Shown: positions 24,757-54,883 of the stretch, in pieces
Numbering within the stretch: position 1 is the first letter of the stretch
How the letters are laid out: each line of letters starts with the position of its first letter
Assembly: GCF_024172085.1 (NCBI RefSeq)
Contig: NZ_JAMZDZ010000001.1
Span: 6,882,001-6,946,000, forward strand
DNA: 64,000 nt
Origin: Hamadaea flava
GTDB taxonomy: Bacteria > Actinomycetota > Actinomycetes > Mycobacteriales > Micromonosporaceae
Direction of reading: 5' to 3'
Program-made: the position numbers and the translations under genes
Notes under the pieces: generated by a model
The model's input: the letters and a program-made list of their open reading frames with translations, nothing else
What the model was told of the DNA's origin: nothing
Database searches by the model: none

Positions 24757-24809
24757 GATCACGGATGCGCAGGCTACAACCGCTCATGATCACATGCGTA
24801 TCCGTGATC
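24757..24809. repeat. 53-bp palindromic repeat, copy A (5' of priA)
   Basis: Runs from GATCACGGATGCGCA to TGCGTATCCGTGATC; the outer 15 bases pair with one mismatch, while the centre has decayed. It lies 29 bases before the priA ATG, between two same-strand genes, so it would form a hairpin in the priA leader. It belongs to a family of seven elements in this window, all 53 bases long. Confidence 0.85.
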
Positions 24810-24838
24810 TGCGGCGAATACCGGGAGAGTGAGAGAGC

Positions 24839-25564
24839 ATGACACTGGAGCTGCTGCCGGCCGTCGACGTCGCCGGGGGCCAGGCCGTACGCCTGGTGCA
24901 GGGCGCCGCGGGCACGGAGACGGCGTACGGCGATCCGCTGGAGGCGGCGCTGGACTTCGCCCGGCAGGGGGCGCAGTGGATTCATCTCGTCGACCTGGAC
25001 GCCGCGTTCGGCCGGGGCTCCAACGCCGAGCAGCTGGCCGCCGTCGTCCGTGCCTTGGACTGCAGGGTCGAGCTGTCCGGGGGCATTCGCGACGACGAGT
25101 CGCTGCGGCGGGCGCTGGGCACCGGGGCCGCCCGGGTCAACATCGGCACGGCGGCGCTGGAGGACCCGGAGTGGTGCGATCGCGTCGTCGGCGAGTACGC
25201 CGACCGCGTCGCCATCGGGTTGGACGTCCGTGGGCGTACCCTCTCGGCGAGAGGCTGGACCCGCGACGGCGGTGACCTGTTCGACGTGCTGGCGCGTCTG
25301 GAGCGCGCGGGCTGTGCCCGGTACGTCGTGACGGACGTGCACCGCGACGGCACGATGACCGGGCCGAACCTGCAGCTGCTGCGCGACGTCTGCGGCGCGA
25401 CCGACAAGCCGGTGGTGGCCAGCGGCGGTGTCTCCACTCTGGACGATCTGCGGGCGCTGGCGACGCTGGAGAAGGAGGGCGTCGAGGGCGTGATCGCCGG
25501 AAAGGCCCTGTACGCCGGGGCGTTCACGGTCGCCGAGGCGCTCGCCGCCCTGGAGGAAGCGTGA
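24839..25564 (+). CDS. priA: PriA: bifunctional HisA/TrpF phosphoribosyl isomerase
   Basis: (beta-alpha)8 barrel that isomerises ProFAR in histidine synthesis and, in actinobacteria, usually also PRA in tryptophan synthesis. The 241 residues begin [20 protein letters not shown] (catalytic Asp in the first strand) and include [58 protein letters not shown] (second catalytic Asp) and [11 protein letters not shown]. The dual role is family knowledge: actinobacteria usually lack trpF, but that cannot be checked here. Palindromic repeat A stands just before its ribosome-binding site (GAGAGTGAGAG). Confidence 0.93.
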
Positions 25565-26835
25565 CCGAGGTCGTGATCCCGGGGTCGAAGTCGGTGATGG
25601 CGCGCGCGCTGTTCCTGGCGGCGGCGGCGGACGGGGTGAGCACCCTGCGTCAGCCGCTCGCCTCCGACGACACCGAGGCGTTCGCCTACGGCCTGCGCGA
25701 TCTCGGATACGAGGTCGACCTGCGGCCGGACGTGTGGACGGTCACCGGGCTGCCGCACGGTCCGTCAGCCGGGGAGCGCTCGCGCGAGACGCCAGGAGTG
25801 CGGTCAGCCAGTGCGAGCGTCTACACGAGGGACGCCGGCACGGCCTCTCGCTTCCTGCCCGCGCTGGTCGCGGCCGGGCACGGCACGTTCCGTTTCGACG
25901 CCTCGGCGCAGATGCGCCGCCGTCCGGTCGCCCCGCTGGTCGACGCGCTGCGGCAGCTCGGCGTCGAGGTCTCGTGCGACGAGACCGAGGGGCACCTGCC
26001 GCTCACCGTCCACGCCGACGGCGTCAAGGGCGGCACGCTCACCCTCGACGCCTCGCTGTCCTCGCAGTTCCTCACCGCACTGCTCATGCTCGGTCCACTC
26101 ACGACGGACGGGCTCGTGATCCGCGTGGGCGAACTGGTCTCGGTGCCGTACATCGAGATCACGCTCGCGATGATGCGCCGCTTCGGCGCCACCGTCGACT
26201 GGTCCGGCGACACCTTCACCGTCGCGCCGGGCGGCTACCAGGCCCGCGACTACCTGATCGAACCCGACGCGTCCAGCGCCAGCTACTTCTTCGCCGCCGC
26301 CGCGGTCACCGGCCGCGAGGTCACGGTCCACGGCCTGGGCAGCGAAAGCTTGCAGGGTGACGTGCGGTTCGTCGACGTCCTGGCCCGGATGGGCGCGACG
26401 GTACGCGTAGCGCCCGAGTCGGTGACGGTGATCGGCCCCGAGAACGGGCGGCTCGACGGGGTGACCGTGAACATGCGCGACATCTCCGACACGATGCCGA
26501 CGCTGGCCGCGATCGCCCCGTACGCCTCGTCGCCGGTCCGCATCGAAGACGTCTACAACACCCGGGTCAAGGAGTGCGACCGGCTGGAGACGTCGGCCGT
26601 GAACCTGCGCCGTCTCGGGATCGCCGTCGAGACGGGCCGGGACTGGATCGAGATCCAGCCGGGGCAGCCGCAGGCCGCCGAGATCCTGACCGAACGGGAT
26701 CACCGGATCGCGATGAGCTTCAGCGTCACCGGACTGCGTACGCCGGGGATCACCCTGGACGACCCGGACTGCGTCAAGAAGACCTTCCCGACGTTCCACT
26801 CCGTCTTCCACTCCGCGTTCCCCGGGCTCCGTTGA
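25561..26835 (+). CDS. aroA: 3-phosphoshikimate 1-carboxyvinyltransferase-like (EPSP synthase)
   Basis: Joins shikimate 3-phosphate and phosphoenolpyruvate in the shikimate pathway. The 424 residues show [15 protein letters not shown] (Lys10 at the substrate site), [12 protein letters not shown] in place of the usual N-A-G-T-A-x-[32 protein letters not shown] and the end region [12 protein letters not shown]. These cover both halves of the EPSP/MurA fold. The GTG at 25561 overlaps the priA stop, so it is cotranscribed with histidine genes. It looks divergent, so a second paralogue elsewhere would be no surprise. Palindromic repeat B follows the stop by 6 bases. Confidence 0.88.
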
Positions 26836-26841
26836 GCGCTG

Positions 26842-26894
26842 GATCAGGGATCTGCCTGTGATCTTGGTCCAAGCTCGCAGGCATATCCCTGATC
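26842..26894. repeat. 53-bp palindromic repeat, copy B (between aroA and lysE)
   Basis: Begins GATCAGGGATCTGCCTG and ends CAGGCATATCCCTGATC; the arms pair over about 25 bases with only a few mismatches, and CTTGG pairs with CCAAG next to the loop. It starts 6 bases after the aroA stop and ends 26 bases before the lysE ATG, so it could act as terminator, leader hairpin or both. Confidence 0.9.
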
Positions 26895-26920
26895 TGCTGA
26901 AAGCAGTACGCTCAAGGTCC

Positions 26921-27556
26921 ATGGACTTCACCACAGCGGTCGTCTCGTTCGCCGTCGTCGCCGGACTGCTGACCATCATCCCGGGAGTGGACACCGCTCT
27001 CGTTCTGCGTACGGCGGTCGTGCAAGGACGCCGGCACGCCTTCGCCACCGCCTTCGGGATCTGCACCGGCGCGCTCGTCTGGGGCGCCGCGGCCGCGGCC
27101 GGAATCTCCGTGCTGTTGACGGCGTCGCGGACGGCGTACACCGTGATGCGGGTGGCGGGCGCGATCTATCTGATCTACCTCGGCGTCATGATGCTCCGGG
27201 ACGCCCGGCGGCCCAAGACCGCGGCCGACGTCGACGTCGCGCTGGTCTCACCGTGGCGCGCGTTCGCCCGGGGCCTGACCACGAACCTGCTCAACCCCAA
27301 GGTCGGCGTCTTCTACGTCGCCATGCTCCCGCAGTTCCTCCCGGCCGACGTCCCGGCGCTGCCGATGGGCGTACTGCTGGCGCTGGTGCACGACCTGGAG
27401 GCGATGGTGTGGTTCACCCTCATCATCGGCGGCGTCGGGCTGGCCCGCCGCTGGCTCACCGGCAGCGCGGCAGCCGCCGTCCGCATCCGCCGGGTGACCG
27501 ACGCGATCGCGGGAACGGCTCTGGTCGCGCTGGGGATCCGGCTGGCCGCCGACTGA
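26921..27556 (+). CDS. LysE/RhtB family amino-acid exporter
   Basis: 211-residue inner-membrane exporter with about six hydrophobic segments. Family motifs include LLTIIPGVDTALVLRTAVVQG (N-terminal), AFGICTGALVWGAAAAAG, GAIYLIYLGVMMLRDA and GLTTNLLNPKVGVFYVAMLPQF. The substrate is not deducible; the family exports lysine, threonine, homoserine and others. A longer frame runs through repeat B, so the ATG at 26921 is preferred. The stop overlaps the next ATG. Confidence 0.92.
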   Translation: MDFTTAVVSFAVVAGLLTIIPGVDTALVLRTAVVQGRRHAFATAFGICTGALVWGAAAAAGISVLLTASRTAYTVMRVAGAIYLIYLGVMMLRDARRPKTAADVDVALVSPWRAFARGLTTNLLNPKVGVFYVAMLPQFLPADVPALPMGVLLALVHDLEAMVWFTLIIGGVGLARRWLTGSAAAAVRIRRVTDAIAGTALVALGIRLAAD

Positions 27557-28638
27557 TGACCGAGTTCGCGAGGCGCGGGCCACTGCCGGTGTCGGCGGCA
27601 ACGCAGAAGTTGCTGGACCGGTACGCGGGCGCCTCGCACTCGGGGCGGTGGGATTCGGCAGCCGTCGGCGTGATCCTCCGGCACGGCTCACCCTCCGACG
27701 CAGACGCGCTCCTCCCGGTGTTCCTGGCGCAGCCCGATGCAGGCCGGCATCTGGTACCCGTGCTCGCCAAGCACGGCGATCAGTCGACTGCCGGGCGTCT
27801 GCTGGCGGAGTTGACGGATGACGGACGGCTGCGCGACGGCGTGCCGGCTGAGGTCTTGCACGCGGTCGGCTTGCTGGGCTACGAACCCGCCGAGCAGATG
27901 CTGTGGCAGTACGCCGAAGGTCCGTACGACGAGGCGATGAACGCGTCCCTGGGGCTGCTGCACCTGCCCTGCCGTGGCGTACGCGCGGAGGTCGCCGCGG
28001 CGCTCGAGCGTCACCAGGGCGCGGCGTTGTTCCCGGAGTTCCTGCCGGCGCTGGCGGCGAAGACTGGTGACCCGTCGTGGCTGGGCAGGCTCGCCGCATG
28101 GGGCGAGGACGCCGCCTCTACCGACTGCAATGGTGGACTGATCCTGGGCATCGCGCTCCACGGCGACCGGGCTCGCGCCACGTTCACGCGGTTGCTCTGG
28201 GACCCGAGGTGGGAGGCGAACGGCGGCGGAACCGGCTCCGATCGCTGGGCGTACGCGGGAGCCCGGGTGCTGGGCCTGACGATGTCGGACCTGTACACCG
28301 GCCTCCGCGCCCGCCTGGATGGCGACCTGGCCCAGGAGGAGATGCGGCACTGCCTGGAGACCTTCACCGCGCTTCTCGGCGGTTGGGTCGGCCGACCCTG
28401 GCTCGGCCTGACCAGCGCGCCTGATCCGGCCGAGACTCCTGACATGCTCCTTGACCTGTTGTTCGAATGGTCGACGCCAGATCGGGACGATTCGGTGATC
28501 GGATTGGCGAGCAGCGTCCTCGATCCCGATGACGGCGTGCTGGCCCGCCTCTACGAGCTGGAGAACGAACTGCGCGTGCGGGCTGAGCACGACCTGGAGA
28601 TCCAGACGCTCATGTCTCGACGCCTGCACGACCGGTGA
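27556..28638 (+). CDS. Alpha-helical repeat protein of unknown function
   Basis: 360 residues, starting at an ATG that overlaps the lysE stop. The sequence is a run of amphipathic helices with repeated Ala/Leu/Glu patterns (for example LLAELTDDGRLRDGVPAEV, VGLLGYEPAEQMLWQYAEG, GLLHLPCRGVRAEVAAALE), suggesting a HEAT-like solenoid. No catalytic motif, signal peptide or membrane segment is visible. Its last 29 bases overlap the convergent DUF4132 gene, whose family is also often found next to solenoid proteins. Confidence 0.7.
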   Translation: MTEFARRGPLPVSAATQKLLDRYAGASHSGRWDSAAVGVILRHGSPSDADALLPVFLAQPDAGRHLVPVLAKHGDQSTAGRLLAELTDDGRLRDGVPAEVLHAVGLLGYEPAEQMLWQYAEGPYDEAMNASLGLLHLPCRGVRAEVAAALERHQGAALFPEFLPALAAKTGDPSWLGRLAAWGEDAASTDCNGGLILGIALHGDRARATFTRLLWDPRWEANGGGTGSDRWAYAGARVLGLTMSDLYTGLRARLDGDLAQEEMRHCLETFTALLGGWVGRPWLGLTSAPDPAETPDMLLDLLFEWSTPDRDDSVIGLASSVLDPDDGVLARLYELENELRVRAEHDLEIQTLMSRRLHDR

Positions 28639-30985
28639 CGCCGATCTGCCGGAGGATCGACTGGTCGGTGATCTTGCCGTCGGCGGCGAGCAGGAACGCC
28701 TTGCTCAGGATGAGGGCCAGCCGATCGTCGGTGAACGGCAGATACACCTGATCCGCCTTCCCGCGGGCCGGCACGATGCACAGGTACGCGTCGTCCGGCT
28801 CCATGAGAATGTTGCCGCTGCCCAGGTGGATCTTGTAGGTGCGCAGACTGCCCCGCACGTACAGCCAGCGATCCCGAAGCTCGCAGCGGTCGGCGATGTT
28901 CAGCCGGGGCAGGACGCGGGCCAACGCGTCCCGGCGGCTCTGTGCGGTCTCGGTGAGATCGCCGAAACCCGTCTCCCACCAGTACGCGTGGTGCTGCTCC
29001 CGCCGTAGCGTCCACTCCGGATCAGCGGCGACCGAGGTGACGCCGACGAAGAGGTCGACGTCCCGCATGGCCTCGCTGAACAGCATCGGCGGCACCTCGG
29101 TCACGCCGGCGGACCGGAAACTGCCGTCGACCCGGCGATCGAACCGGATCCGGCCGGTGACCGCGCATTCGTTGTCGGCGTCGGCGTACTCCTGGTCCAG
29201 AACGACTCGCCACTGGCCGCCGGGCAGGACCCGTACGGCTTCGGCGAAGTCGCCTCCGTCCCAGGGGCCGAGCATCGGCGTACTCCAGCCGCGGCCCTTG
29301 ACCAGGGCGTAGAACTGCTTGTACCGCACGATGTGCGCGGCGAACCGGAGCGACTCGGTCCCGGCCTGCTCCTCGGCCGGGGTCAGCAGATAGATCTCGC
29401 GGAAGGCCTGCTTGAACGGCTGGCGGAGGCCGGCGGCGAGGAACCGCTCGCGCCAGGCCTGGATCTCGTCGACGGTCGACCGGATCGGATGCCACAGCCG
29501 GATGCCCGCGTCGCCGACCGGCTTGACCACGACCCCGTCCGGGCCGACGAAGTCGCCACCCTCGGGCATCACCGACTGCCATCGGCCGGGGGAGACCTCG
29601 ACCTCCCAGATCAGCCCGCGCGCCACGGCGAGGCCGAGCCCGGTGCCGCCCAGCTCGGCCCGCCATCGGTCCACGGTCTGCTCGGCCGGTGCCGCGATGC
29701 CGCTCTCCAACGCCCGGACGAGCGAACGATGGTGCGCCCTCGCCCGTTTGAGCAGATCCCGGGCCGCCGCCACGACCTCCTTGTGGTCGCGTTTGACCAC
29801 GGCGGACGGGGTCGCGGAGACCTTGCCGCCGTCGGCGCGCCAGCTGAGCGTGACCTCCTCGGCCGTCGCCACGAGCACCGCGGCCTGCGGCCCGGCCGCG
29901 ACCTCCAGCGTGCCGTCGGCCTCGAAACCCAGGTCGGGCAGCCTGGTCGCGACCTCCGGCCGATCGGCCAGTGCCAGCTCGATCATCTTCAGCTTTCGAT
30001 CCAGCTGCTTGGGTACGCCCTTGTGCCGTACGCGGGACCGTGCCTCCCGCAGGATGGTCAGCACCTCCGGCGTGGGGAAGTCGATGGCGGCGCGCGCGAT
30101 CTCGTAGAGCAGCGCCTGAGAGGGGAGCGTCTTGGCCGCTGTCGGCGCCACGCTGACCTGGAACACCAAGGGCCGCAGCAGCTCGGGCAGCTCCCGCTCG
30201 TCCAGCAGCAGCAGGACGCGGGCCGCCCGGCCGAGCGTGGCGACCTCCAGATGGTCGAACGCCTTGTCCGCGACGAACGGCAGCTCGCCACTGTGGATGC
30301 GAGCCGCCCGGTCGGCCGCCGTACGCAACGCGGCCCAGCAGTACGCCCGGTACTCCTCGGTGTCGGCCAGCCGTCGCCACTGACCCGACGACGGCGGTGG
30401 CAGGTCGTAACCGCGATCCGAGCTCAACTCGGCGATCGGCAGCAGGCTGGGCGGCCCGATCTTCGTCAGCACGGCTAGTTCCTCCTGGGCGATGGGCGGG
30501 AGGGTGTTCTTGAAGACCTGCCGGATGAGCACCCCGGTCAGACCACCGGAGACCGCAGCGAGCGCGACCATCGCGTACGGCGCGGTGAACCGAGCGTTCT
30601 TGATCAGCGACCGCAGCAGCGAACCGATGCTCTTGGCGGCGCTCGGCGGCCACGGGCCGTCACAGTGGAGCAGCGCGTTGACGGCGAGCGTCGGATGGCC
30701 GCCGAGGTCCCGTGCCGCCCGGCCCGCGACCGCGTCGAGGAAGTCGGCGCAGGTCTGCGTCGTGAACCTCGGCTGCCGCGTACGCAGCACCACGTCCAGC
30801 GAGTACATGAGCGTGGAATAGCCGAAGCCGGGCAGCCGCCGCTGCGCTGCGACCGCGAGCGCGCCGAGGTCGTGATCGGACAGCCGCGCCTCGTCCACCG
30901 ACCGGTGCGCGAGCGGGTCGTCTTGGGCCGCCATGGGATCGGAGACGACCCGCATGAGGTCGGCCGCGTACGCCGAAAGCTCCAC
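28610..30985 (-). CDS. DUF4132 domain (MolR-like) protein
   Basis: 791 residues starting at GTG. The first 400 are helical and contain an insert of Ala/Leu-rich repeats. The C-terminal third matches the DUF4132 pattern: RFAAHIVRYKQFYALVKGRGW, YKIHLGSGNILMEPDDAYLC and VYLPFTDDRLALILSKAFLL then ADGKITDQSILRQI. The family is widespread in actinobacteria and enterics (MolR-like); its biochemical role is unknown. There is no membrane segment. It overlaps the 3' end of the preceding plus-strand gene by 29 bases. Confidence 0.82.
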   Translation of the reverse strand: MELSAYAADLMRVVSDPMAAQDDPLAHRSVDEARLSDHDLGALAVAAQRRLPGFGYSTLMYSLDVVLRTRQPRFTTQTCADFLDAVAGRAARDLGGHPTLAVNALLHCDGPWPPSAAKSIGSLLRSLIKNARFTAPYAMVALAAVSGGLTGVLIRQVFKNTLPPIAQEELAVLTKIGPPSLLPIAELSSDRGYDLPPPSSGQWRRLADTEEYRAYCWAALRTAADRAARIHSGELPFVADKAFDHLEVATLGRAARVLLLLDERELPELLRPLVFQVSVAPTAAKTLPSQALLYEIARAAIDFPTPEVLTILREARSRVRHKGVPKQLDRKLKMIELALADRPEVATRLPDLGFEADGTLEVAAGPQAAVLVATAEEVTLSWRADGGKVSATPSAVVKRDHKEVVAAARDLLKRARAHHRSLVRALESGIAAPAEQTVDRWRAELGGTGLGLAVARGLIWEVEVSPGRWQSVMPEGGDFVGPDGVVVKPVGDAGIRLWHPIRSTVDEIQAWRERFLAAGLRQPFKQAFREIYLLTPAEEQAGTESLRFAAHIVRYKQFYALVKGRGWSTPMLGPWDGGDFAEAVRVLPGGQWRVVLDQEYADADNECAVTGRIRFDRRVDGSFRSAGVTEVPPMLFSEAMRDVDLFVGVTSVAADPEWTLRREQHHAYWWETGFGDLTETAQSRRDALARVLPRLNIADRCELRDRWLYVRGSLRTYKIHLGSGNILMEPDDAYLCIVPARGKADQVYLPFTDDRLALILSKAFLLAADGKITDQSILRQIGVTGRAGVET

Positions 30986-31028
30986 GCCGCCGGAGTCTAA
31001 ACACCCCCTCCGACACCCACCAGGTGCG

Positions 31029-31937: not shown

Positions 31938-31980
31938 GCCCCCACCTTGCCACGCGAGATCGCCCACGGCACCGCCATCC

Positions 31981-32051
31981 CCCGCGGCTCGCGGCCACCC
32001 AGGCGTCGACCGTCCGGCCGCGCACCTCAGCGCACCACTGCGAGCCGCGGG
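31981..32051. repeat. 12-bp inverted repeat in a 190-bp intergenic region
   Basis: CCCGCGGCTCGC (31981-31992) and its exact complement (32040-32051) are separated by 47 bases; the right arm also forms a small GCGAGC/GCTCGC hairpin on its own. It lies between two minus-strand genes, so it may end the transcript of the upstream phosphotransferase gene. No gene is visible in this stretch. Confidence 0.45.
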
Positions 32052-32127
32052 CTCGCCTGCGCAGAATGCCATTGCAGCACGCCACAAATCCCGCGCGACA
32101 AATCGGCGAACCACAACCGAGCGGCGG

Positions 32128-33195: not shown

Positions 33196-33290
33196 TGGGC
33201 AAGTATGCCCTCGTTAATGTGGTTCGACGGGTGCCCAGCCGCGAGTAGAGTCGGCGGCACCGCATGCGACTATGAGAGGGAGCGCGTTAG

Positions 33291-35357: not shown

Positions 35358-35394
35358 CGCGGACGCCCTCTCCCTACGCGTACGCCCTCTCTGG

Positions 35395-35453
35395 GCGGAT
35401 CAGGGTTCTGCATGCTTCCGAGGGACTCGGAAGCATGCAGAACCCTGATCCGC
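35395..35453. repeat. Palindromic repeat, copy C: perfect 28-bp hairpin
   Basis: Arms 35395-35422 and 35426-35453 are exactly complementary over 28 bases with a GGA loop; the GATC-to-GATC core is 35398-35450, again 53 bases. Against the other copies, positions 9-11 of the core are changed (GGTTCTGC against GGATATGC), and the opposite arm is changed to match (GCAGAACC). It lies between the M3 peptidase stop and the next gene, so it may also stop transcription. Confidence 0.95.
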
Positions 35454-35529
35454 ACCGGACGGTGACCGTTTATCCGGGTACGCCCACCGGGGGCAGCGCG
35501 AACCAGTGACCAGGCCCTAAGCTCCGCCG

Positions 35530-39799
<4,270 letters not shown>

Positions 39800-41586: not shown

Positions 41587-41610
41587 TCACCCGGCCGGGT
41601 GACACCGCTG

Positions 41611-41663
41611 GATCAGGGATGTGCGTGCTTGCGAGGCGCTCGGACAGCTGCATGTCCCTGATC
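41611..41663. repeat. 53-bp palindromic repeat, copy D (end of the CIS operon)
   Basis: Runs GATCAGGGATGTGCGTGC ... GCTGCATGTCCCTGATC. The outer nine bases pair perfectly; the middle has several changes. It lies between convergent genes, 9 bases past the stop of the last CIS gene on the minus strand, so it could be a bidirectional terminator. Confidence 0.88.
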
Positions 41664-41672
41664 TGCGGCGGA

Positions 41673-42428
41673 TCAGGTTTTCGTGAGGGCGGCGGTGACG
41701 CGTACCGCCTTGACGATGGCGGGGATCGAGCCGATGAGCAGCACGATGCCCCACACGATCCCGGTGACGGCGAAGATGATCGCGCCGATGTCGTCCAGGA
41801 TGCTGACGAAGATCAGCGGCAGCAGGCCGTGCAGGAACTCCAGGCACAGCGTGCAGACCAGCGAGGTCAGGATCAGCAGCACGAGCCCCTTGTTCTGCAG
41901 GAACCGCGGCTGGGCCAGGATCAGCAGGAGCGCCCAGGCCAGCTTGAGGAACATCAGCAGGCCGACGATGACCGAGGCCTTCGCGACCGGGAAGAATCCC
42001 CAGATCGCCAGGTACGCCATCGTCCCGAAGGGGAACGCGAAGACCAGCGAGATCATCACCATCAGCTCGATGAACGCGATGATGAGCATGACGATCGAGA
42101 CGATGATCAGGATGATCGAGCCGATCAGCGTCGCGATGCCCTGCACTCGGCCCTGCACCCGGTCGGGCACGACCAGGCTCAGGGTGAACAGGCCGGTCGT
42201 GTAGAGCGCGATGATGTCGATGAAGGCCAGGTACATGATTCCCCGGCCGGGCGGCTCCGAGACGTTGCCGATGTCGCCGAGGTCGACGTCCATGCCGTCG
42301 GCGGTGTGGGCCAGCGCGCCGGAGGCGTCGAGCCCGCCGAGCATGAGCCCGGAGCCGAGTTCGACCAGCACGACGAGCGTGACCGCCAGGAAGGCCAGGA
42401 GCAGGAACGGTTTGCGTAGTTCGCCCAT
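41673..42428 (-). CDS. Polytopic membrane protein at the end of the CIS operon
   Basis: 251 residues with about six hydrophobic segments (around 8-30, 65-83, 95-125, 130-150, 157-175, 195-240) and little else; the first extracellular loop holds HTADGMDVDLGDIGNVSEPP. It follows two other membrane proteins on the same strand in the CIS operon, starting behind GGGAGGAG. No transporter family is recognised. A role in membrane docking or release of the injection particle is suggested only by location. Confidence 0.7.
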   Translation of the reverse strand: MGELRKPFLLLAFLAVTLVVLVELGSGLMLGGLDASGALAHTADGMDVDLGDIGNVSEPPGRGIMYLAFIDIIALYTTGLFTLSLVVPDRVQGRVQGIATLIGSIILIIVSIVMLIIAFIELMVMISLVFAFPFGTMAYLAIWGFFPVAKASVIVGLLMFLKLAWALLLILAQPRFLQNKGLVLLILTSLVCTLCLEFLHGLLPLIFVSILDDIGAIIFAVTGIVWGIVLLIGSIPAIVKAVRVTAALTKT

Positions 42429-42440
42429 GTCTCCTCCCGG

Positions 42441-43930: not shown

Positions 43931-43940
43931 GAGGGTGCTC

Positions 43941-47878: not shown

Positions 47879-47892
47879 CGCCGTGCCTCCCC

Positions 47893-49509
47893 TCAGCCGC
47901 TCTGCTTCGCTGCGGCGGCCGCCTGATCGGCCGCCGCCTGCGGGTCCTCGGGCGCGTCGGCGTGCTGGAAGTCGACGGTCCGGGCCCGGATGACCATCGC
48001 CTTGCCGGGCGCCTGGAGCACCATCGGCGTCGCGGCGTGCAGCGTGGTCAGGTCCGGGGTCAGCTCCAGGTAGCTGCCCACCTCGGTCTCCAGCCGGAGG
48101 CTGCGGCCACCGTCGTCGACCACGATCTTCTGCCCGTACGCCGTGCGCATCGACCAGCGCTGAGCCTTGCCGTCGTTGATCCCGGCGTCGTAAGGCTCGA
48201 CAGCGCCGAACAACGAGCCGAGCACGATCCCGGCCGCCGGTTCGCCGCCCGGCAACGCCACGAGCACGGTGTCCGCCGGGTCGGGCAGTGCCACGATGCC
48301 CTTGCCCCGGCCCGCGCCCGGCAGCGCGACGGCGAGCCAGCCCGCGTCGAGACCCCCGTACGCGGGCAGGTCGATCCGCACTCGGCCCAGCCGATCGGGA
48401 TCGTCCACATCGGTCACCGTGCCCAGGGTCAGCACCGCGGCCGACGACTGCGCGGGAACCGGTGGCGGCACGGTCGAGAACCGGGTCAGCTGTCCGGCGG
48501 CGTCCAGCGTGTGCACCACCTCGGTCAGCACGTACACCCCGCAGAACCGTTCGGCGACGCCGCCGACCGCGATCCGCCGCCCCGGCCGCAGCCGCCCGTC
48601 GCCGTCGGCCGTGCCGGTCGCGGTCGCCCAGGCGGCCGTCCGGGTGTCCAGCCAAGCCTGTGCGAGGGCGGCCAGCTCGTCGTCGCTGCGACCGGGCTGG
48701 TTGACCGCGGTACGCGTACCGTCGGCCCCGACGTCGCCGGGATCGGGGCGCAGTGGGATCTTGCGGCCCGACCGTGCCGAAGCGGCCGATTGCTCGATCA
48801 GTTCGGCCCGCTGCGGATGCCAGCCGAGCGCCGTGCTGTCGCCGGCCGCCTGGTCGAGATTGGCCTCGACGCGTACGCCGATCAGCGAGGAGCCGAGGTC
48901 CAGCGGCACCGGGACGCCGTAACCGTCCAAAGTGATCAGACGCAGGGTGCCGCCGTCGACCGCCAGGTGCAGCCCGGCCCGCCCGGCGACCTCGACGAGC
49001 AGTTCCAGATCGGTCTGCCGGTGTTGCAGCAGCCGCTCGATCCGGGGACCGTCGACTGACCGCACTCCTGGCGGCTCGCCCGAGAGGCTCCCCGGCGCCG
49101 CGTCGACGCTCAGACCGGCCTTCCCGGCCAGCTCACGGGCGAGGTCGGCGACCGTCACCGACTCGAAGACCCGCAGCTCCTGATGCTTGCGCAGGCGGTG
49201 CAACAGGTCGTACGCCCGCACTCGCAGCAGCGCCGCGCCGTCGGCTGCGTACTCGATCTCGACGGCCGTCACCTCACCGGAGAACAGGTCGTCGGTCGTG
49301 TCGTCCAGGCGTACGGCCAGCGCGGCGCCGAACGGGAACATCGCCGGGTCGGCGCCCGCACCGGGATCGGCGGTGAAGGTCAGCTCGCACTGACCGGGCT
49401 GGTCGAGCCGGGCCGAGACGCGTACGCCGACCAGCCGGGTCAGCGCCGACGGCGGCAACGGCATCCCCTTCACCTGCACCGACAGCGCCCGGGGGGTCAC
49501 GGCGGTCAC
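47893..49509 (-). CDS. VgrG-like spike protein (Pvc8-like)
   Basis: 538-residue central spike. The N-terminal 330 residues form the gp27/late-control-D-like part (VRVSARLDQPGQCELTF, DLFSGEVTAVEIEYAADG, LRVRAYDLLHRLRKHQELRV then FESVTVADLARELAGKAG), and a gp5-type OB-fold follows (VTDVDDPDRLGRVRIDLPAY, GWLAVALPGAGRGKGIVALP). After this come the beta-helix-like needle residues (EVGSYLELTPDLTTLHA) and an Ala/Gln-rich end. No effector domain is fused. GTG 49509 overlaps the stop of the preceding gene. Confidence 0.88.
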   Translation of the reverse strand: MTAVTPRALSVQVKGMPLPPSALTRLVGVRVSARLDQPGQCELTFTADPGAGADPAMFPFGAALAVRLDDTTDDLFSGEVTAVEIEYAADGAALLRVRAYDLLHRLRKHQELRVFESVTVADLARELAGKAGLSVDAAPGSLSGEPPGVRSVDGPRIERLLQHRQTDLELLVEVAGRAGLHLAVDGGTLRLITLDGYGVPVPLDLGSSLIGVRVEANLDQAAGDSTALGWHPQRAELIEQSAASARSGRKIPLRPDPGDVGADGTRTAVNQPGRSDDELAALAQAWLDTRTAAWATATGTADGDGRLRPGRRIAVGGVAERFCGVYVLTEVVHTLDAAGQLTRFSTVPPPVPAQSSAAVLTLGTVTDVDDPDRLGRVRIDLPAYGGLDAGWLAVALPGAGRGKGIVALPDPADTVLVALPGGEPAAGIVLGSLFGAVEPYDAGINDGKAQRWSMRTAYGQKIVVDDGGRSLRLETEVGSYLELTPDLTTLHAATPMVLQAPGKAMVIRARTVDFQHADAPEDPQAAADQAAAAAKQSG

Positions 49510-50252
49510 GGGACATCACCGGCCTTGCCCGTGATCGGCGGTACGGCCAGCGCGGTGCCCGCCTCGACCTCGAACGGATTGGTGATGCGGTTGTGCTCGG
49601 CCAGCAGCCGCCACCGCAGCGGCGACCCCAGCGCGTCGTGGGCCAGCAGGTCGAACCGCACCCCGGTGCCGCCCTGGACGCCGTTGTCGCCGGTGGCCCG
49701 GCCGTCGCCGGTCGCCACGATCGCTGTGCCGGGTGGGGCGGGCGTACTGGCCGCGGCCAGCTCCTCCTCGAAACCGGCCTGCGCCTGGTCGGCCGACTCC
49801 GCCACGCGGACCAGCTTCAACCGCAGCCAGGAGCGTTTGGGCGTACCGGTGAGGGTGAACGCGTCGAACCGCTCGGCGATGGCCACGATGATCCCGGGCA
49901 CCAGCCACGCTTTGCCCCACGCGAAGAACACCTTCGGTGGGCGTACCCAGCCGTGCTCGGTCGCCGAGTTCTCCGCGAGCATCCACAGCGGACGGGTCAG
50001 GGCGCGTACGTCGGAGGGACGGGTCTGCGACTCCACGAAGTCGATGTCGAACAACAGGTCCAGGGTCAGCTCGGTACGCCCCCCGCCGGTGAACACCAGC
50101 GGATCGTCGGCCAGCCCCTGCCCGGTGATCTGCCCGGCCGCCGACGACCGTGGGCGTACCCCGGCCAGCCGGGTGACCTGGACGGTCTCCGGATTGAGCA
50201 GGCAGTCCACGCGTACTCCGGTCTCGTCGATGAGGAAGGCGACCCGTTCCAT
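49506..50252 (-). CDS. CIS tube/LysM-type baseplate protein (Pvc7-like)
   Basis: 248 residues. The first 150 match the eCIS tube/gp53-like domain (FLIDETGVRVDCLLNPETVQ, GGGRTELTLDLLFDIDFV, KVFFAWGKAWLVPGIIVAIA then ERFDAFTLTGTPKR). The C-terminal 60 residues resemble a LysM-like ending (DLLAHDALGSPLRWRLLAEH ... VEAGTALAVPP). It caps the tube initiator and contacts the spike. ATG 50252 overlaps the stop of the proline-rich gene; a longer upstream frame is the shadow of that gene. Confidence 0.85.
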   Translation of the reverse strand: MERVAFLIDETGVRVDCLLNPETVQVTRLAGVRPRSSAAGQITGQGLADDPLVFTGGGRTELTLDLLFDIDFVESQTRPSDVRALTRPLWMLAENSATEHGWVRPPKVFFAWGKAWLVPGIIVAIAERFDAFTLTGTPKRSWLRLKLVRVAESADQAQAGFEEELAAASTPAPPGTAIVATGDGRATGDNGVQGGTGVRFDLLAHDALGSPLRWRLLAEHNRITNPFEVEAGTALAVPPITGKAGDVP

Positions 50253-51160
50253 CAGGCACCCGCCTGTTCCTTGTCGAGCCGGGCCAGCCGGTCGGTGGTG
50301 AACAACGGCGGCACGGCGCTCCACAGTTCGGTGTCGTCCGGCAACTGCGGCCACGGGTCCGCCACCGGCTCCGGCCCGCTCACCTCCGGCGGGTGGTACG
50401 CCCGCCACGCCGGCGCCACCGCCGCCCCCGGTCGGGTCGGCGTCACCACCGGATCAGGGATCTGGGTCGAATCTTGGGCCCGGGAAGCAGGCGTATCCGT
50501 GATCCGCTGCCCAAGGGGAGCGCGGGACGGTGGCCGGATCGGGGACGACGGTCGGATCGGGGGCGGCACCGGTAGCGGCGGTGTCGTCGTGACCCTTGCC
50601 GGCGGCACTTCGCCTGCGGCGCTGCCGGACCGCCGAGCCGGTGCGACGGGGGGCTCGCCCGGCAACGACGGCCACCGCGCTGGAGCCACCGGCGCGTCCC
50701 TCCCCGGCGTCACCACCGCAGCCGCCACCGGCGTCCCCGCTCGGGCCGCCGTTACCACCGGATCAGGGATATCCCTGGAATCTTGGGCACGGGAAGCATG
50801 CATATCCGTGATCTGCTGCCAACGACGGGATGGCGGGAGGACGGCGGGAGGGGCGGTGGGTGGGCGGGAGGCGGCGGTGGACGGCGGGTTCGAGGCGGGC
50901 GTCGGGGGGTCGGACGGAACCGGCGACTCCGGGTACGCCGTTGTGCGTATCCCTTCGTCTGGAGCGGGACCGTCGCGGAGCAGGCCGGGCGCATGTGCCG
51001 TGACCAGCGCGAGCCAGTGCTCGGGAGGCTGGCCGGGCCGACGCGGCGCGGGCGGCTGGACCGGCGGCTCCAGGGCCGACGCGGCCCGTTGCAGCCGCGT
51101 GGCCGCCGCCAGCAGCACCCGCGCGAGGCTGACTGCACTCCTGGCGGCTCCCGCGAGCAC
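50252..51160 (-). CDS. Proline-rich protein at the Pvc6 position, with two in-frame palindromic repeats
   Basis: 302 residues between tube and Pvc7 genes, starting at GTG 51160 behind GGGGA, 8 bases after the tube stop. The N-terminus (VSLARVLLAAATRLQRAASA, then PGQPPEHWLALVTAHAPGLL) looks like the small Afp6/Pvc6 proteins of other eCIS; the last 25 residues (DDTELWSAVPPLFTTDRLAR) are also ordered-looking. Between them is a Pro/Ala/Arg-rich disordered stretch. Repeats F and E fall here and are both read as ITD-x-x-ASRAQDS-x-x-IPDPVVT (about residues 117 and 220). The flanking peptide is similar in both, so one may be a duplication. The coding status of the middle part is less certain than its ends. 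Confidence 0.68.
   Translation of the reverse strand: MLAGAARSAVSLARVLLAAATRLQRAASALEPPVQPPAPRRPGQPPEHWLALVTAHAPGLLRDGPAPDEGIRTTAYPESPVPSDPPTPASNPPSTAASRPPTAPPAVLPPSRRWQQITDMHASRAQDSRDIPDPVVTAARAGTPVAAAVVTPGRDAPVAPARWPSLPGEPPVAPARRSGSAAGEVPPARVTTTPPLPVPPPIRPSSPIRPPSRAPLGQRITDTPASRAQDSTQIPDPVVTPTRPGAAVAPAWRAYHPPEVSGPEPVADPWPQLPDDTELWSAVPPLFTTDRLARLDKEQAGA
50452..50504. repeat. 53-bp palindromic repeat, copy E (inside the proline-rich CIS gene)
   Basis: Begins GATCAGGGATCTGGG and ends GCAGGCGTATCCGTGATC; outer arms pair, inner parts are partly decayed. It lies inside the Pvc6-position gene, and its minus strand encodes ITDTPASRAQDSTQIPD. The preceding bases GTCACCACCG are nearly the same as before copy F, 309 bases away, so a segment larger than the element has probably been duplicated. 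Confidence 0.85.
50761..50813. repeat. 53-bp palindromic repeat, copy F (inside the proline-rich CIS gene)
   Basis: Begins GATCAGGGATATCCC and ends GCATGCATATCCGTGATC. Its minus strand encodes ITDMHASRAQDSRDIPD in the same frame as copy E. The two differ at 11 of 53 positions, more alike than to the intergenic copies. Confidence 0.87.
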
Positions 51161-51167
51161 TCCCCGG

Positions 51168-51650
51168 CTAGGAAGTGGGCTTCGCCGCCGTGCCACTGCC
51201 GGTCTCCAGTTCCAGGCTTTCGTAGGCGAGGGCGATCGACTCGATCGCGATCTCCTGCGCGAGCGTGTTGAGGTGCGCCCCACGCCACCGGGTCGGCCAC
51301 GCGTTGATGACGTTCCAGCGCAGCACCTCGGTGGTGCCGGCCGCGTCGTACAGGGCGATGGACACGTTGCGGCGGCTGACCGTGCCCTTGGCCGCGCCGT
51401 TCACCCAGTCCCAGATCTCGCGAGACGACGTGAGTCCGAAGTGGAGAGTGATCGGCTCGTAGTCGACCTGGCCGGGCACGTAGCGGATGCGGTCGTTGCC
51501 CGCCTCCCGGTACGCCAGCCGCTGGATGGTGAACTCGAGCCCGGAGACCTCGGTGAAATGCCCGTTGGTGACGCCGTTGATGAGCAGCTTGAAGTTGTAC
51601 GCGCGGTAGGGGTCGACCGGCGCGCCCGGCTGCGGGGTGGCCTGTGCCAT
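51168..51650 (-). CDS. Inner tube protein (gp19/Pvc1-like)
   Basis: 160 residues with the phage tail-tube-like fold: DPYRAYNFKLLINGVTNGHF, EVSGLEFTIQRLAYREAGND, ITLHFGLTSSREIWDWVNGA and WNVINAWPTRWRGAHLNTLA then QEIAIESIALAYESLEL. It would stack to form the inner tube of the injection particle. ATG 51650, 2 bases before the sheath stop in reverse order, is preferred because it directly precedes this conserved start. Only one tube gene is seen in the locus, where Afp/PVC have two. Confidence 0.9.
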   Translation of the reverse strand: MAQATPQPGAPVDPYRAYNFKLLINGVTNGHFTEVSGLEFTIQRLAYREAGNDRIRYVPGQVDYEPITLHFGLTSSREIWDWVNGAAKGTVSRRNVSIALYDAAGTTEVLRWNVINAWPTRWRGAHLNTLAQEIAIESIALAYESLELETGSGTAAKPTS

Positions 51651-51652
51651 TG

Positions 51653-52879
51653 TCAGCTCCCAATCGTCTCGGTCTCGGTGCCGCCGGCCCACTGGCTCAG
51701 CTTGAACACCACGAACTCGGCCGGCTTGACCACCGCGATGCCGATGTGCGCGACCACCATGCCGGCGTCACGGACGTCGACCGGGTTGGTCTCCTCGTCG
51801 CACTTGACGAAGAACGCCTCTTCCGGCGTACGCCCCAGCAGCGCCCCGTCGCGCCAGACCCGGGTCAGGAAAGCGCCGATGTCTCGCCGGATCGACCGCC
51901 ACAGCGTGAAGTCGTTGGGCTCGAACACCATCCACCGGGTGCCGTTGGCGATGGCCTGCTCCAGCGAGATCGTCAGCCGGCGTACGTTGAGGTAGCGCCA
52001 CTCGCTCGCCTCGGCGGCCAGGGTCCGGGCGCCCCAGACGCGGATGCCCTCCCCGGCGAACGACCGGATGCAGTTGACCCCTTTGGGGTTGAGCACGTCC
52101 TGCTCCGAGCGGGTCAGCTGACGGGCGAGGTCGACCGCGCCCCGGACCGGCTCGTTGGCCGGCGCCTTGTGCACCCCGCGCAGCGCGTCGGTACGCGCCC
52201 AGACCCCGGCGATGTGCCCGGACGGTGGGGTGTCGACGAGTTCCCCGGTCAGCGGGTCGCGCACGGTGATCCACGGGTAGTAGAAGGTGCCGAACTCCGA
52301 CTGGCGCGGCCGGTTGCCGACGTCCTCCGGCGACGGAGCGGCCGGGGCGGGGTCGTCGGGCTTCGGCGGCTTGGCCGGCTTGTCGGTGGGCGTGCCGACC
52401 CGGGTCAGGCTGGCGATGTCGTCGACGTCCGGCGCGGGGTCGCAGATCGCGACCATGGTGCGCAGCCGCTCGGCCAGGCTCAGCAGGGCCTCGGTGGCGA
52501 CCGCGCCGTGGAACCCGGGCGCGGCCACGATCGACAGCTCGTCGACCGTCTCCAGCAGTTGCAGCCCGGCCCGCTTGCGGCCGGTGCCGCTGATCTGGCC
52601 GTTCGCTCCGACGTTGACCACCCAGCACCGGGTGCCCCCGTTGTCGAAGAAGCCGAAGACCGCCCGGGACAACGGGGTGCCCTGCGGGTTGTCCACACCC
52701 GAGGCGAAGACGTTCAGGAACTCGGTCCAGTTGTTGACCGGGACCGCGCGGTCGGAGACGGCGTTCGGGTCGGGGGCGACGCCGACGAAGCCCGCCGTGC
52801 TGGTGCCCACCGCGCCGATCGGCCGCGCGCCACTGGGCACCTCCTCGACGTAGATGCCGGGGGAGAAGTAGTTGGGCAT
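51653..52879 (-). CDS. Contractile sheath protein
   Basis: 408-residue sheath. The N-terminus NYFSPGIYVEEVPSGARPIG is the classic phage/eCIS sheath start, followed by TSTAGFVGVAPDPN, VNNWTEFLNVFASG, FGFFDNGGTRCWVVNVG, then the C-terminal conserved part ANGTRWMVFEPNDFTLWRSI, RRDIGAFLTRVWRDGALLG and EEAFFVKCDEETNPVDVRDA. The middle (about 150-200) is enriched in Pro and Asp and may be an exposed loop. ATG 52879 follows GAGGAG. Only one sheath gene is present. Confidence 0.93.
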   Translation of the reverse strand: MPNYFSPGIYVEEVPSGARPIGAVGTSTAGFVGVAPDPNAVSDRAVPVNNWTEFLNVFASGVDNPQGTPLSRAVFGFFDNGGTRCWVVNVGANGQISGTGRKRAGLQLLETVDELSIVAAPGFHGAVATEALLSLAERLRTMVAICDPAPDVDDIASLTRVGTPTDKPAKPPKPDDPAPAAPSPEDVGNRPRQSEFGTFYYPWITVRDPLTGELVDTPPSGHIAGVWARTDALRGVHKAPANEPVRGAVDLARQLTRSEQDVLNPKGVNCIRSFAGEGIRVWGARTLAAEASEWRYLNVRRLTISLEQAIANGTRWMVFEPNDFTLWRSIRRDIGAFLTRVWRDGALLGRTPEEAFFVKCDEETNPVDVRDAGMVVAHIGIAVVKPAEFVVFKLSQWAGGTETETIGS

Positions 52880-52902
52880 GTGAACTCCTCAGTCGTGAGG
52901 CT

Positions 52903-53652
52903 TTAGCGGGTAGGCAGGTCGCAGCGGAGGACGAGGTCCGGCTCGCCGGGATCGACGGCCGCGACGAAGATCCGGCCCCGGCCGACCAGGCGGAGGCGTA
53001 CCTCGCCGCTGTCGGGCACGCCCGCGACGGTGAACCGTCCCTGGGCGTCGGTGACGGTGGCGAGCGTCGTGCCGAGCACCTCGACGCGGACGGCCGCCAG
53101 CGGGACGTCGCCAGGACCGGCGACGGTTCCGGCCAGCGTCCGCCGGGCGACGTGCTCGATCTTCAACGGGTGGAGCACCGGCGGGGCCGGCTGCTCGGCG
53201 TACGCGACGATCGCCGGGAGGTCGACGAGCAGCGCCGGTCGCGGCGGTACGCCCAACGCCTGCCACAGGGCCGGATCGCCGGCCGTCAGCAGGATCTCGG
53301 GTTCCCCGGCGTGGACGGCGGCGGTCAGCACCCGGTCGAGGCTGCGTACGGCGTCGTTCCCGGACGCCGTCACGAGGAAGCGCACGGTGAACCGGTACGG
53401 CTCGCGGGGACCGGTGCCGCGCGTCTGGCGCGCCGGGCGTACTTCCAGGAGGTAGACGGTGACGCTGCCAGGCTTTGGGCTGCCGTGGTGATCGCCGCCG
53501 CCTGGAGCGCTGTCCACAATAGACACGATAGGAGCGGGCGCGTCCGGGTCGGACAGGCGCGCGGTAACACCGGCCGTCCGCCCCAGCCAGTCGAGCAGCC
53601 GGGCGGTGGCCGCCTCGATGGGGCCGGGCCCGGGGTCGGTCATGCGGAGCAT
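52903..53652 (-). CDS. DUF4255 (Pvc16-like) protein with Ig-like C-domain
   Basis: 249 residues, first gene of the CIS operon. Residues 1 to about 165 match DUF4255/Pvc16, the terminator or cap family (IEAATARLLDWLG, KPGSVTVYLLEVRPA, YRFTVRFLVTASGNDAVRSL, DRVLTAAVHAGEPEIL, PALLVDLPAIVAYAEQPAPP). The rest is a carboxypeptidase-regulatory-like domain (LAGTVAGPGDVPLAAVRVEV, DAQGRFTVAGVPDSGEVRLR). Pvc16 family members control tube and sheath length. ATG 53652 is the start; direct repeats stand just upstream. Confidence 0.82.
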   Translation of the reverse strand: MLRMTDPGPGPIEAATARLLDWLGRTAGVTARLSDPDAPAPIVSIVDSAPGGGDHHGSPKPGSVTVYLLEVRPARQTRGTGPREPYRFTVRFLVTASGNDAVRSLDRVLTAAVHAGEPEILLTAGDPALWQALGVPPRPALLVDLPAIVAYAEQPAPPVLHPLKIEHVARRTLAGTVAGPGDVPLAAVRVEVLGTTLATVTDAQGRFTVAGVPDSGEVRLRLVGRGRIFVAAVDPGEPDLVLRCDLPTR

Positions 53653-53679
53653 TCTGTGACGAGGCGATCACTATTCACA

Positions 53680-53711
53680 GTCGCCGATCCGTCACATGGG
53701 TGTCGCCGATC
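53680..53711. promoter_or_regulatory. Direct repeats upstream of the CIS operon
   Basis: GTCGCCGATC occurs at 53680-53689 and 53702-53711, spaced 22 bases apart, two helical turns, 28-59 bases before the first CIS start codon. This is a plausible operator for a regulator that binds side by side on one face of DNA. No convincing -35/-10 pair was found. Confidence 0.35.
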
Positions 53712-53760
53712 TAACGACAGCGAAGTCGCATTTGGGTGACGACATGTTGACGTTGTGTAG

Positions 53761-54807
53761 CTAGGCTGAGGGGTTGTCCTCAGTCAGGTGATCGTCCGTC
53801 AGTTCTTGGAGTTCGTGCTGCTTAGGCACGTCGCGCAGAGGCAGATACGGTTCGGCTCGCGGGGGCAGCCCGGCCGCGATCGCCCGCGCGCGGCCGAGTT
53901 CGGCATCGAACTCCGCGCCCAGCAGAACCGCCACATTGGTCAGCCACAGCCAGACGAGGAAGACGATCACCCCGCCGAGGGTTCCGTATGTCTTGTTGTA
54001 CGACCCGAAATGGGCGACGTAGAAGGCGAACCCGGCGGACACCGCGATCCACAGCACCACGGCGAACAGACTCCCCGGCGTGATCCAGCGGAAGCCGCCC
54101 TGCCGCGCATTCGGGGTAGCCCAGTAAAGCAAGGCGAGCATCATCGTCACGCCGAGGATCAGCGCGGGCCATTTCACCACGTCGAAGACGCGGATGCTCG
54201 CCTCCTCGAAGCCGAGCGCCTTGCCGGCCTGCGCGGCCAGCCGTCCGGTGAAGACGACGACCAGCGCGCTGACCGCGAGGAAGACGCCGGTGATCGCGGT
54301 GATGGCCAGCTGCACCGGCACCGTCTTCCAGAACGGACGGCCCTCGGGCACGTCGAAGATCCGGTTCGCCGCCCGCATGAACGATCCGATGTAGCCGGTC
54401 GCCGACCAGAACGCGATCACCAGACCGGCGACCGCCAGCAGCCCGGCGGTCTGGCGGCTCTCCCGCAGGTTGTCGATGCTGTCAGCGATGATCTGCTGGG
54501 CCGGTCCGGGCGTCAGCTCGCGGATGTTCGCCTCCACAGCGCTCGCGGTCGAGTCGCCCAGCAGGCCCACCGCGGCCACGAGGACCAGCAGACCCGGGAA
54601 GATCGACAGGATGCCGTAGTAGGTCAGGGCTGCGGCCATGTCGCCCAGGTCGTCGGCCACGAATTCGGCGATGGTACGCCGGAAGACGCGGACCCAGGCC
54701 CGGAAACCGAGGTCGGCGGGGCGACGCGGAGCGCGTTTGAGCAGCCGGAGCAGGCGGTCGCGATGCAGCCGGCCGGGTTCGGCGCTGCGCGGCGTCTTGG
54801 GGGCCAT
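53761..54807 (-). CDS. YihY/BrkB family membrane protein
   Basis: 348 residues with about six transmembrane segments. Family motifs: FVADDLGDMAAALTYYGILS then IFPGLLVLVAAVGLLG, IAFWSATGYIGSFMRAANRI and GSYNKTYGTLGGVIVFLVWL then WLTNVAVLLGAEFDAEL. Formerly called ribonuclease BN, but the family is a membrane protein of unknown transport or permeability role. ATG 54807 is chosen because the upstream frame runs through palindromic repeat G, which lies 23 bases before it. Confidence 0.9.
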   Translation of the reverse strand: MAPKTPRSAEPGRLHRDRLLRLLKRAPRRPADLGFRAWVRVFRRTIAEFVADDLGDMAAALTYYGILSIFPGLLVLVAAVGLLGDSTASAVEANIRELTPGPAQQIIADSIDNLRESRQTAGLLAVAGLVIAFWSATGYIGSFMRAANRIFDVPEGRPFWKTVPVQLAITAITGVFLAVSALVVVFTGRLAAQAGKALGFEEASIRVFDVVKWPALILGVTMMLALLYWATPNARQGGFRWITPGSLFAVVLWIAVSAGFAFYVAHFGSYNKTYGTLGGVIVFLVWLWLTNVAVLLGAEFDAELGRARAIAAGLPPRAEPYLPLRDVPKQHELQELTDDHLTEDNPSA

Positions 54808-54830
54808 GACCGTCCATATTCCCCGATGCA

Positions 54831-54883
54831 GATCACGGATATGCATGCTTTCCGACGCCTCGGAAGCGTGAATATCCGTGATC
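54831..54883. repeat. 53-bp palindromic repeat, copy G (leader of yihY-like gene)
   Basis: Begins GATCACGGATATGCATGC and ends GTGAATATCCGTGATC; CGGAAGC on the right arm faces GCTTTCCG on the left. It lies between the stop of the LysR gene and the start of the YihY gene, both on the minus strand, 23 bases before the ATG. Confidence 0.9.

Follow-up and report, generated by a model that had tools for sequence, protein, structure and literature searches.

The stretch of DNA analysed here (64,000 nucleotides; hereafter the window) contains seven palindromes, each running from one GATC to another, and it raises the question of whether these sequences form a genuine repeat family and, if so, what kind of element that family represents. 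All seven coordinates and the 53-bp distance from GATC to GATC given in an initial annotation proved correct. Each of the seven lies in an intergenic position according to our gene calls which, like the arm classes referred to below, were produced with ad hoc scripts. The elements are the following:

Element A, 24747..24819 (core 24757-24809 plus 10-bp symmetric flanks), no strand assigned: 13 bp past a stop codon and 29 bp ahead of a HisA/TrpF-like start.
Element B, 26832..26904 (core 26842-26894), no strand assigned: flanked by an EPSP-synthase-like gene (stop at 26835) and an efflux-transporter-like gene.
Element C, 35388..35460 (core 35398-35450), no strand assigned: 41 bp past a peptidase M3 (Dcp-like) gene; a near-perfect palindrome with ends GGGTT/AACCC.
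Element D, 41601..41673 (core 41611-41663), no strand assigned: a minus-strand gene on each side.
Element E, 50442..50514 (core 50452-50504), no strand assigned: mixed arms, fold not better than that of shuffles.
Element F, 50751..50823 (core 50761-50813), no strand assigned: mixed arms, fold not better than that of shuffles.
Element G, 54821..54893 (core 54831-54883), no strand assigned: minus-strand neighbours, a LysR regulator upstream and a YihY-like gene downstream.

The strict pattern GATCASGGA-N-TCCSTGATC matches six of these seven elements, the exception being element C (GGGTT...AACCC), and its six occurrences in the window compare with none in all 100 dinucleotide shuffles. Nor are the seven sites the sole copies, as the whole genome holds 88 strict matches at 53-55 bp and a reversed-pattern control yields 0. 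The four genomes of the genus that were searched all carry the repeat, with 36, 51 and 87 strict copies in the three other species. Outside the genus it was found in 3 of 296 genomes of the family (1, 1 and 2 copies) and had no match in the 395 other genomes of a phylum sample; G011 carries a related repeat in 13 copies, nine of which measure 55 bp. The earlier proposal of a dispersed, non-coding palindromic repeat family is thereby supported, at about 100 copies. No described family had been recognised at that time, and this still stands: Rfam gave no match in the window at gathering score, and a literature search, to which most subscription papers were out of reach, turned up no account of repeats like these in this group.

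The claim of a fixed length holds in part. The predominant length is 53 bp, and in G001, a species of the genus, all 50 places listed (of 87) have it although 38-68 bp were allowed. Copies of other lengths nevertheless exist: at least four of 52 bp among 13 places listed in the own genome (G000), at least 25 of 52 bp in G003 (the difference between two pattern counts), and two own-genome copies of 90 and 91 bp that are lengthened by a central insert. The element is also larger than first reported, because a weaker symmetric consensus continues for about 10 bp outside each GATC of the 53-bp core, giving a whole element of about 73 bp. GATC stands at the start and end of a 53-base frame in 95 of 99 inspected copies, and the flank profile omits the four in which it does not (L062, L068, L071, L080). 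The base preceding GATC is A at 116 or G at 74 of 190 ends, and the conserved foot reads purine-GATCASGG. Two arms form the dyad of each copy, and every arm comprises a sequence-specific outer block (a weak TTNGCRSCR followed by GATCASGGWT), a short stretch of variable sequence and, innermost, a block drawn from a small set (CGAATCTTGG, GATCTTGG, TTCCGAGG and CCAAAAC). The two subgroups of elements originally described do exist as classes of arm sequence, but these classes belong to half-arms and not to whole elements; E and F, for instance, each combine one ATCTTGG-type arm with one CTTCC-type arm.

Copies sit 3' of genes. Among 92 loci, 45 are in co-directional gaps, 33 in convergent gaps and 3 in divergent gaps, with 11 in or overlapping ORF calls, which are thus avoided by 81 of the 92. 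From intergenic length, 12.5 loci would be expected in convergent and 22 in divergent gaps. Within co-directional gaps, 42 of 45 copies are closer to the upstream stop codon (median distance 35 vs 117 bp). On a larger scale, 77 of 100 listed places, a list that is not a random sample, lie in the chromosome half centred on dnaA. A role at the chromosome terminus was dropped, since dnaA lies in the enriched half and not opposite to it.

Comparison with related species reveals that many of these positions are kept. The own genome and G003, which are about 87% identical in nucleotide sequence, have 14 positions in common, including all seven window sites. In 69 orthologous 3' gaps of these two genomes, a GATC palindrome is present in both in 16 cases (one of them, at 29032 of region a, being like that at 71937 a weak call of another palindrome that may not be a repeat), in the own genome only in 7, in G003 only in 3 and in neither in 43 (p 8e-8); divergent orthologous gaps have one in 0 of 24. 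Positions are not kept everywhere, as a second collinear stretch has just 4 of 9 own elements in common with G003, and none of the six covered window sites is occupied in G001, C not being covered. The inner sequence turns over at the retained positions. Inner identity is 0.61 for 12 orthologous pairs (a test that omits element G, whose G003 ortholog is 52 bp, and four shared sites of the second collinear stretch) vs 0.55 for random own-genome pairs, while the nearest copy within the own genome reaches 0.86. Turnover is not seen at every site, two of the 12 pairs, A (0.83) and C (0.80), being well conserved. Site A has orthologous elements in both G003 and G002, and F has one in G003. At site B the G003 copy has inner arms of another class; the G003 ortholog of E retains the left arm class and has another class on the right; and that of G belongs to another arm class. 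In G002, site C carries the CGAATC arm class with GGGTT/AACCC retained. A different GATC-ended palindrome occupies some orthologous sites, such as the 71-bp one at site D in G002. These comparisons separate two parts of the initial suggestion of recent spread: copying within the genome is supported by the high identity to the nearest own-genome copy, whereas 'recent' is unsupported because 14 positions are common to two species at about 87% nucleotide identity.

We consider it probable (roughly 0.6) that all seven sites belong to one non-coding palindromic repeat, found across the genus and about 73 bp long around its 53-bp core, which behaves as a non-autonomous element of the REP/MITE type and persists at gene 3' ends. 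The best reading is that of a REP/MITE-like dyad repeat acting at the DNA level, neither made by a RAYT nor serving as a classical terminator. As its 3' place is often kept while the sequence changes between species, the family appears to be a REP-like repeat of an unusual kind. A putative protein may recognise the outer blocks as a pair in duplex DNA, and such recognition would fix the spacing of the arms. Copies would spread or replace each other, and favoured 3' sites would retain a palindrome, or gain one anew, because its presence there is tolerated, targeted or putatively useful, possibly by ending transcription in both directions or as a topological barrier, roles of the kind suggested for REP/BIME. 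Several observations count against this reading, namely that the searches set out below yielded neither a mover nor a cleanly empty site showing a target duplication, that positions are not always kept (4/9 in the second stretch, 0/6 in G001), that pairs A and C are well conserved, and that there is between-arm covariation in elements without CGAATC arms, which a pure protein site does not require.

The alternative that the family is an ordinary MITE of a DDE transposon, consisting of 45-bp or 73-bp insertions with GATC as target, part of the target or duplication and with a transposase lost or unseen, is doubtful. It would account for the terminal inverted repeats, the copy number, presence and absence at orthologous sites, and the identity of some G001 copies to one another (the arm vocabulary of that species differing from that of the own genome). 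It would also fit the finding that most long palindromes of the genus are bounded by GATC on either side: 31 of 41 in two regions of the own genome, of which a few fall within coding sequence and may have arisen by chance, and 20 of 29 in G003. However, conservation continues symmetrically outside GATC, which is therefore more than a target duplication, and none of six aligned presence/absence sites, nor any of the further sites read, was cleanly empty with a target duplication. Insertion alone, moreover, does not predict 14 positions common to two species with mostly different content.

The search for a mover gave no candidate that survived. The RAYT suggested at the outset was rejected, as no Y1 transposase domain (PF01797) was detected in the own genome by a search that was positive in 5 of 14 control genomes, including E. 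coli. Nor was a transposase with these arms at its ends detected where unpaired arms were looked for, in 513 kb of DNA, and the sole transposase seen beside the repeats, that of an IS5-like element, is an invader of them: all three of its close copies are located inside these repeats. This element was rejected as the mover, there being only these three close copies here, besides a fourth homologue that is 30% identical, and no match in G001-G003 at E 1e-30 in a search run without a positive control. That search for unpaired arms recovered the IS5-like element flanked by GATCCCTGATC, which it is because that element sits in repeats, and three other solo arms. The IS5-like element may itself be a naturally site-targeted insertion tool.

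A bolder view, which we regard as rather unlikely, is that gene 3' ends in this genus offer a limited number of addresses reserved for GATC-ended palindromes, at which a machinery recognising paired GATC blocks would swap in and out cassettes from unrelated families (50, 53, 56 and 71 bp), so that site and boundary would be inherited and the sequence between them replaced.

It is unlikely that the repeats are bidirectional transcription terminators, that is, palindromes that form RNA hairpins ending transcripts from both sides and have spread by copying. Their placement close behind stop codons, their frequency in convergent gaps and their near absence from divergent ones are what terminators would show, and sites of the 53-bp family in one species often carry another palindrome in the second. 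Folding is more stable than in shuffles for five of the seven copies in the window (z -3.9 to -14.8), and one group of copies, those without CGAATC arms, covaries between the arms (positions 5, 8, 10-12, 14 and 15). E and F, by contrast, do not fold, and of the 22 copies inspected in G001 at least 18 have two middle arms unlike each other. Sense-strand mismatches exhibit no G-U excess, with 85 G-U vs 96 A-C in 51 elements (90 vs 99 in 52 when one out-of-register 52-bp copy is added), and in the 53-bp core alone the counts are 29 vs 54 (p 0.008), the opposite of what is expected of an RNA stem. The left flank reads TT and the right flank AA, without T enrichment on the 3' side, and conservation of the end sequence exceeds what a terminator needs. 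A classical hairpin was found in 3 of the 20 gaps that carry a GATC palindrome and in 19 of the 78 that do not, which gives no significant mutual exclusion (p 0.55, at low power). The structural constraint initially proposed, taken as a conserved hairpin, is hence weakened, with the covarying group remaining in its favour.

Least probable is a set of immobile, operator-like sites for a nucleoid- or chromosome-organising DNA-binding protein, to which the pairing of conserved blocks with a less constrained spacer of constant length, the lack of covariation in the spacer of CGAATC-CGAATC elements (p 0.16) and the bias towards the dnaA half would be suited, but which is at odds with the copying of a small vocabulary inside each genome, a different one in G001, with other GATC-ended palindromes at the same sites and with the lack of a candidate protein.

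Palindromic repeats of bacteria are usually explained by RAYT-driven spread or by terminator function. The family described here is abundant without a detectable Y1 transposase, is symmetric at the DNA level and occupies sites able to outlive their content. If confirmed, it would be a tractable system in which to ask if palindromes at gene 3' ends are selfish elements, structural ones or both, and it would point to a putative protein that reads two GATC-containing blocks at a fixed spacing. REPs are located at the 3' ends of genes, and the foot of their hairpin is a GTAG-type tetranucleotide. The foot of the present repeats, unlike that of REP/BIME, is GATC, no Y1/RAYT gene was found in this genome, and a near-fixed 53-bp spacing is combined with the keeping of many positions while content changes. 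REP/BIME and REPINs are described as species-specific extragenic palindromes with inverted units that serve as targets of insertion sequences (PMC1525189, PMC2817692). The roughly 100 extragenic palindromic copies found here resemble them in being species-specific, in their inverted units and as targets of an insertion sequence. With intrinsic terminators the repeats share a location right after stop codons, but they differ in having no U-tract, no G-U bias, sequence-specific ends and some unfolded copies. MITEs such as Correia, RUP and BOX are short, non-coding, dispersed and intergenic, with inverted-repeat ends, and the same is true of these repeats, although here no target duplication was seen, no parent transposon was found and the arms make up nearly the whole element. 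HIP1 (GCGATCGC) of cyanobacteria is a highly repeated 8-bp palindrome with a GATC core; the present repeats are likewise highly repeated, palindromic and GATC-containing but, unlike the armless 8-bp HIP1, they possess arms and a 53-bp spacing.

The seven palindromes of the window (A to G, with cores starting at 24757, 26842, 35398, 41611, 50452, 50761 and 54831) had each been described in the initial annotation as measuring 53 bp from GATC to GATC, and both positions and length proved correct. A strict end pattern (GATCASGGA-N-TCCSTGATC) recovers six of the seven and nothing in 100 shuffles; the one missed, element C, ends in GGGTT/AACCC. At 53-55 bp this pattern occurs 88 times in the single-contig H. 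flava genome (8,864,410 bp; reversed control, 0), and relaxed ends add further copies, an end profile finding 14 in one 224-kb stretch and 0 in its shuffle. Genomes of the same genus hold 87, 51 and 36 strict copies. In a 300-genome family sample a 52-54-bp pattern matched 6 genomes, namely three of the four from the genus (G001 escapes it owing to its tenth base) and 3 of the 296 others. These three belong to a single genus, and their 1, 1 and 2 copies agree with the family at the ends, not in the interior. Among 396 genomes of a phylum sample only H. flava matched, and G011, from another genus, carries 13 copies, nine of them 55 bp long.

The symmetrised profile of 95 copies shows a conserved TTNGCRSCR extending about 10 bp outward from GATC, which is directly preceded by a purine at 190 of 190 ends; in G001 conservation reaches further out, with AAGATCCCGTTTG ahead of GATC. 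The two middle arms are unlike in at least 18 of 22 inspected G001 copies. Arms of the H. flava copies sort into classes, CGAATC-type arms being paired with one another 26 times against 8.9 expected, and the other classes mixing more freely. No spacer covariation between arms was found in CGAATC-CGAATC elements (p 0.16); the 65 elements lacking CGAATC arms covary at positions 5, 8, 10-12, 14 and 15. A covariation count over 40 copies gave 83.4% paired cells versus 73.2% in shuffles. Two identical 53-bp elements with similar flanks lie 236 bp apart at one locus (L121 ~6570-6950; G000:C1:7012590-7012920), apparently a tandem duplication. Solo arms (GATCACGGAT...) with no partner at 53 bp, at L002:2778, L044:1963 and L085:1678, may be elements in decay or may terminate some larger unit.

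Relative to genes called with a simple codon-usage script, the 92 H. flava loci comprise 45 co-directional, 33 convergent and 3 divergent gaps, 8 loci inside and 3 overlapping an ORF call; intergenic length predicts 46, 12.5 and 22, respectively, for the 81 clear loci. In 42 of the 45 co-directional gaps the upstream stop is nearer than the next start (medians 35 and 117 bp). Among the matches listed, a non-random sample, 77 of 100 fall in the dnaA-centred chromosome half.

Neither the flanks nor the mismatch pattern supports terminator status. For an RNA hairpin, a surplus of G-U mismatches would be predicted; 51 elements between co-directional genes, oriented by transcription, showed none (85 G-U versus 96 A-C), and in the 53-bp core G-U was the rarer (29 versus 54, p 0.008). 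Single-strand folding beat shuffles for A, B, C, D and G (z -3.9 to -14.8) and was no better than shuffles for E and F. Because of the mismatch pattern and the folding of E and F, we favour a dyad in double-stranded DNA, each of its two arms recognised by sequence, rather than an RNA hairpin; the well-paired class may still form hairpins.

G003 is collinear with H. flava across the window region, mostly at ~87% identity, and has all seven sites occupied. Contigs of G002 spanning sites A-D have a 53-bp element at A, B and C and a different palindrome at D; G001 has no element at the six sites that the stretches compared cover (A, B and D-G). Over the first collinear 198 kb, H. flava and G003 have 10 sites in common, 2 H. 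flava-only and 4 G003-only; counting a 91-bp copy, which stands opposite a different palindrome in G003, raises the H. flava-only number to 3. In a second stretch of ~70 kb, 4 of 9 H. flava elements are common to G003 and 5 are not. Across the 35 inner bp, identity was 0.61 for 12 orthologous pairs (nine with G003, three with G002), 0.55 for random H. flava pairs and 0.86 for nearest H. flava neighbours, with A (0.83) and C (0.80) well conserved; other versions therefore seem to have overwritten most of the sites compared, with a few spared.

GATC ends extend beyond this family. An unbiased search for palindromes of at least 45 bp found GATC near both ends in 18/27 and 13/14 (two H. flava regions), 20/29 (G003), 4/4 (G002) and 1/2 (G001), and in 1/10, 4/9, 0/3, 2/7 and 0/1 from other genera; shorter hairpins of the two H. 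flava regions, G003 and G002 gave 0/25. Unrelated families with such ends include a 56-bp GATCATGGAGTT/GATCATGAAC, a 50-bp GATCATGGTCAATTC, GATCGTCGGC and a 71-bp GATCATTGCGTCAGCC. The 56-bp family (GATCATGAAC...CGACACGCCGG...) is abundant, its matches in G002 and G003 numbering in the dozens, and one end frequently carries a 20-bp tandem GGAGTTGATCAGGGTGC. In G009, from another genus, 69-bp and 71-bp palindromes (GATCATTG...CAATGATC; joined L169-L172, 65740 and 75318) resemble the 71-bp family found in G002 at the site of element D, with interiors unlike that family's. A second dispersed repeat of ~40 bp, around GCCGGGGAGC...GCCGCCAGGAGTGCGGTCAG, gave 14 matches in 1.48 Mb of partly overlapping DNA; one copy lies within an EPSP-synthase-like ORF of the window, two sit at the centre of 53-bp-family elements, lengthening them to 90/91 bp, and in G001 it forms a tandem array with a ~39-bp unit.

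Other repeats in the window and at a further locus, L139
Window 60600-60655, 56-bp GATC-ended family
L139 ~260-350 and 1820-1905, 56-bp GATC-ended family
Window 25768-25807, + strand, ~40-bp repeat
Window ~49056-49096, - strand, ~40-bp repeat
Window ~51129-51169, - strand, ~40-bp repeat

At 69 orthologous 3' gaps, GATC palindromes occupied both H. flava and G003 in 16, H. flava only in 7, G003 only in 3 and neither in 43 (p 8e-8); divergent gaps had 0 of 24. Different families stood at the same gap in 4 of 16 cases with G003 and 2 of 6 with G002. Where H. flava has the 53-bp family and G003 does not, G003 carried another GATC palindrome at 3 of 6 sites, versus 2 of 45 sites empty in H. flava (p 0.009); pooled with G002, the figures are 5/9 versus 2/51, some sites being common to both species. 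On these counts, which are small, 3' sites might act as addresses kept for GATC palindromes of changing family.

At three loci a 1,129-bp insertion sequence is flanked on both sides by GATCCCTGATC, the repeat end. Its 284-aa protein is a DDE_Tnp_4 transposase whose IS5-like assignment falls below the NCBIfam cut-off. All three close copies in H. flava lie in repeats; the genome also has one 30%-identical homologue, and G001-G003 gave no match at E 1e-30. The element is most simply read as parasitising the repeats rather than as having given rise to them; a passage of PMC1525189 gives REP elements as known IS targets.

No account of such repeats in this group appeared among the papers listed by literature searches. 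The 53-bp family may be a MITE: it has inverted ends, and neither a clean target duplication at the presence/absence sites compared nor a partner element in 513 kb of DNA searched for unpaired arms was found. REP/BIME elements are associated with RAYT, according to a passage of PMC2817692, and a search of the H. flava genome for it found no Y1 domain. We file the family with the REP/MITE kind, REP/BIME being the closest known relative in type.
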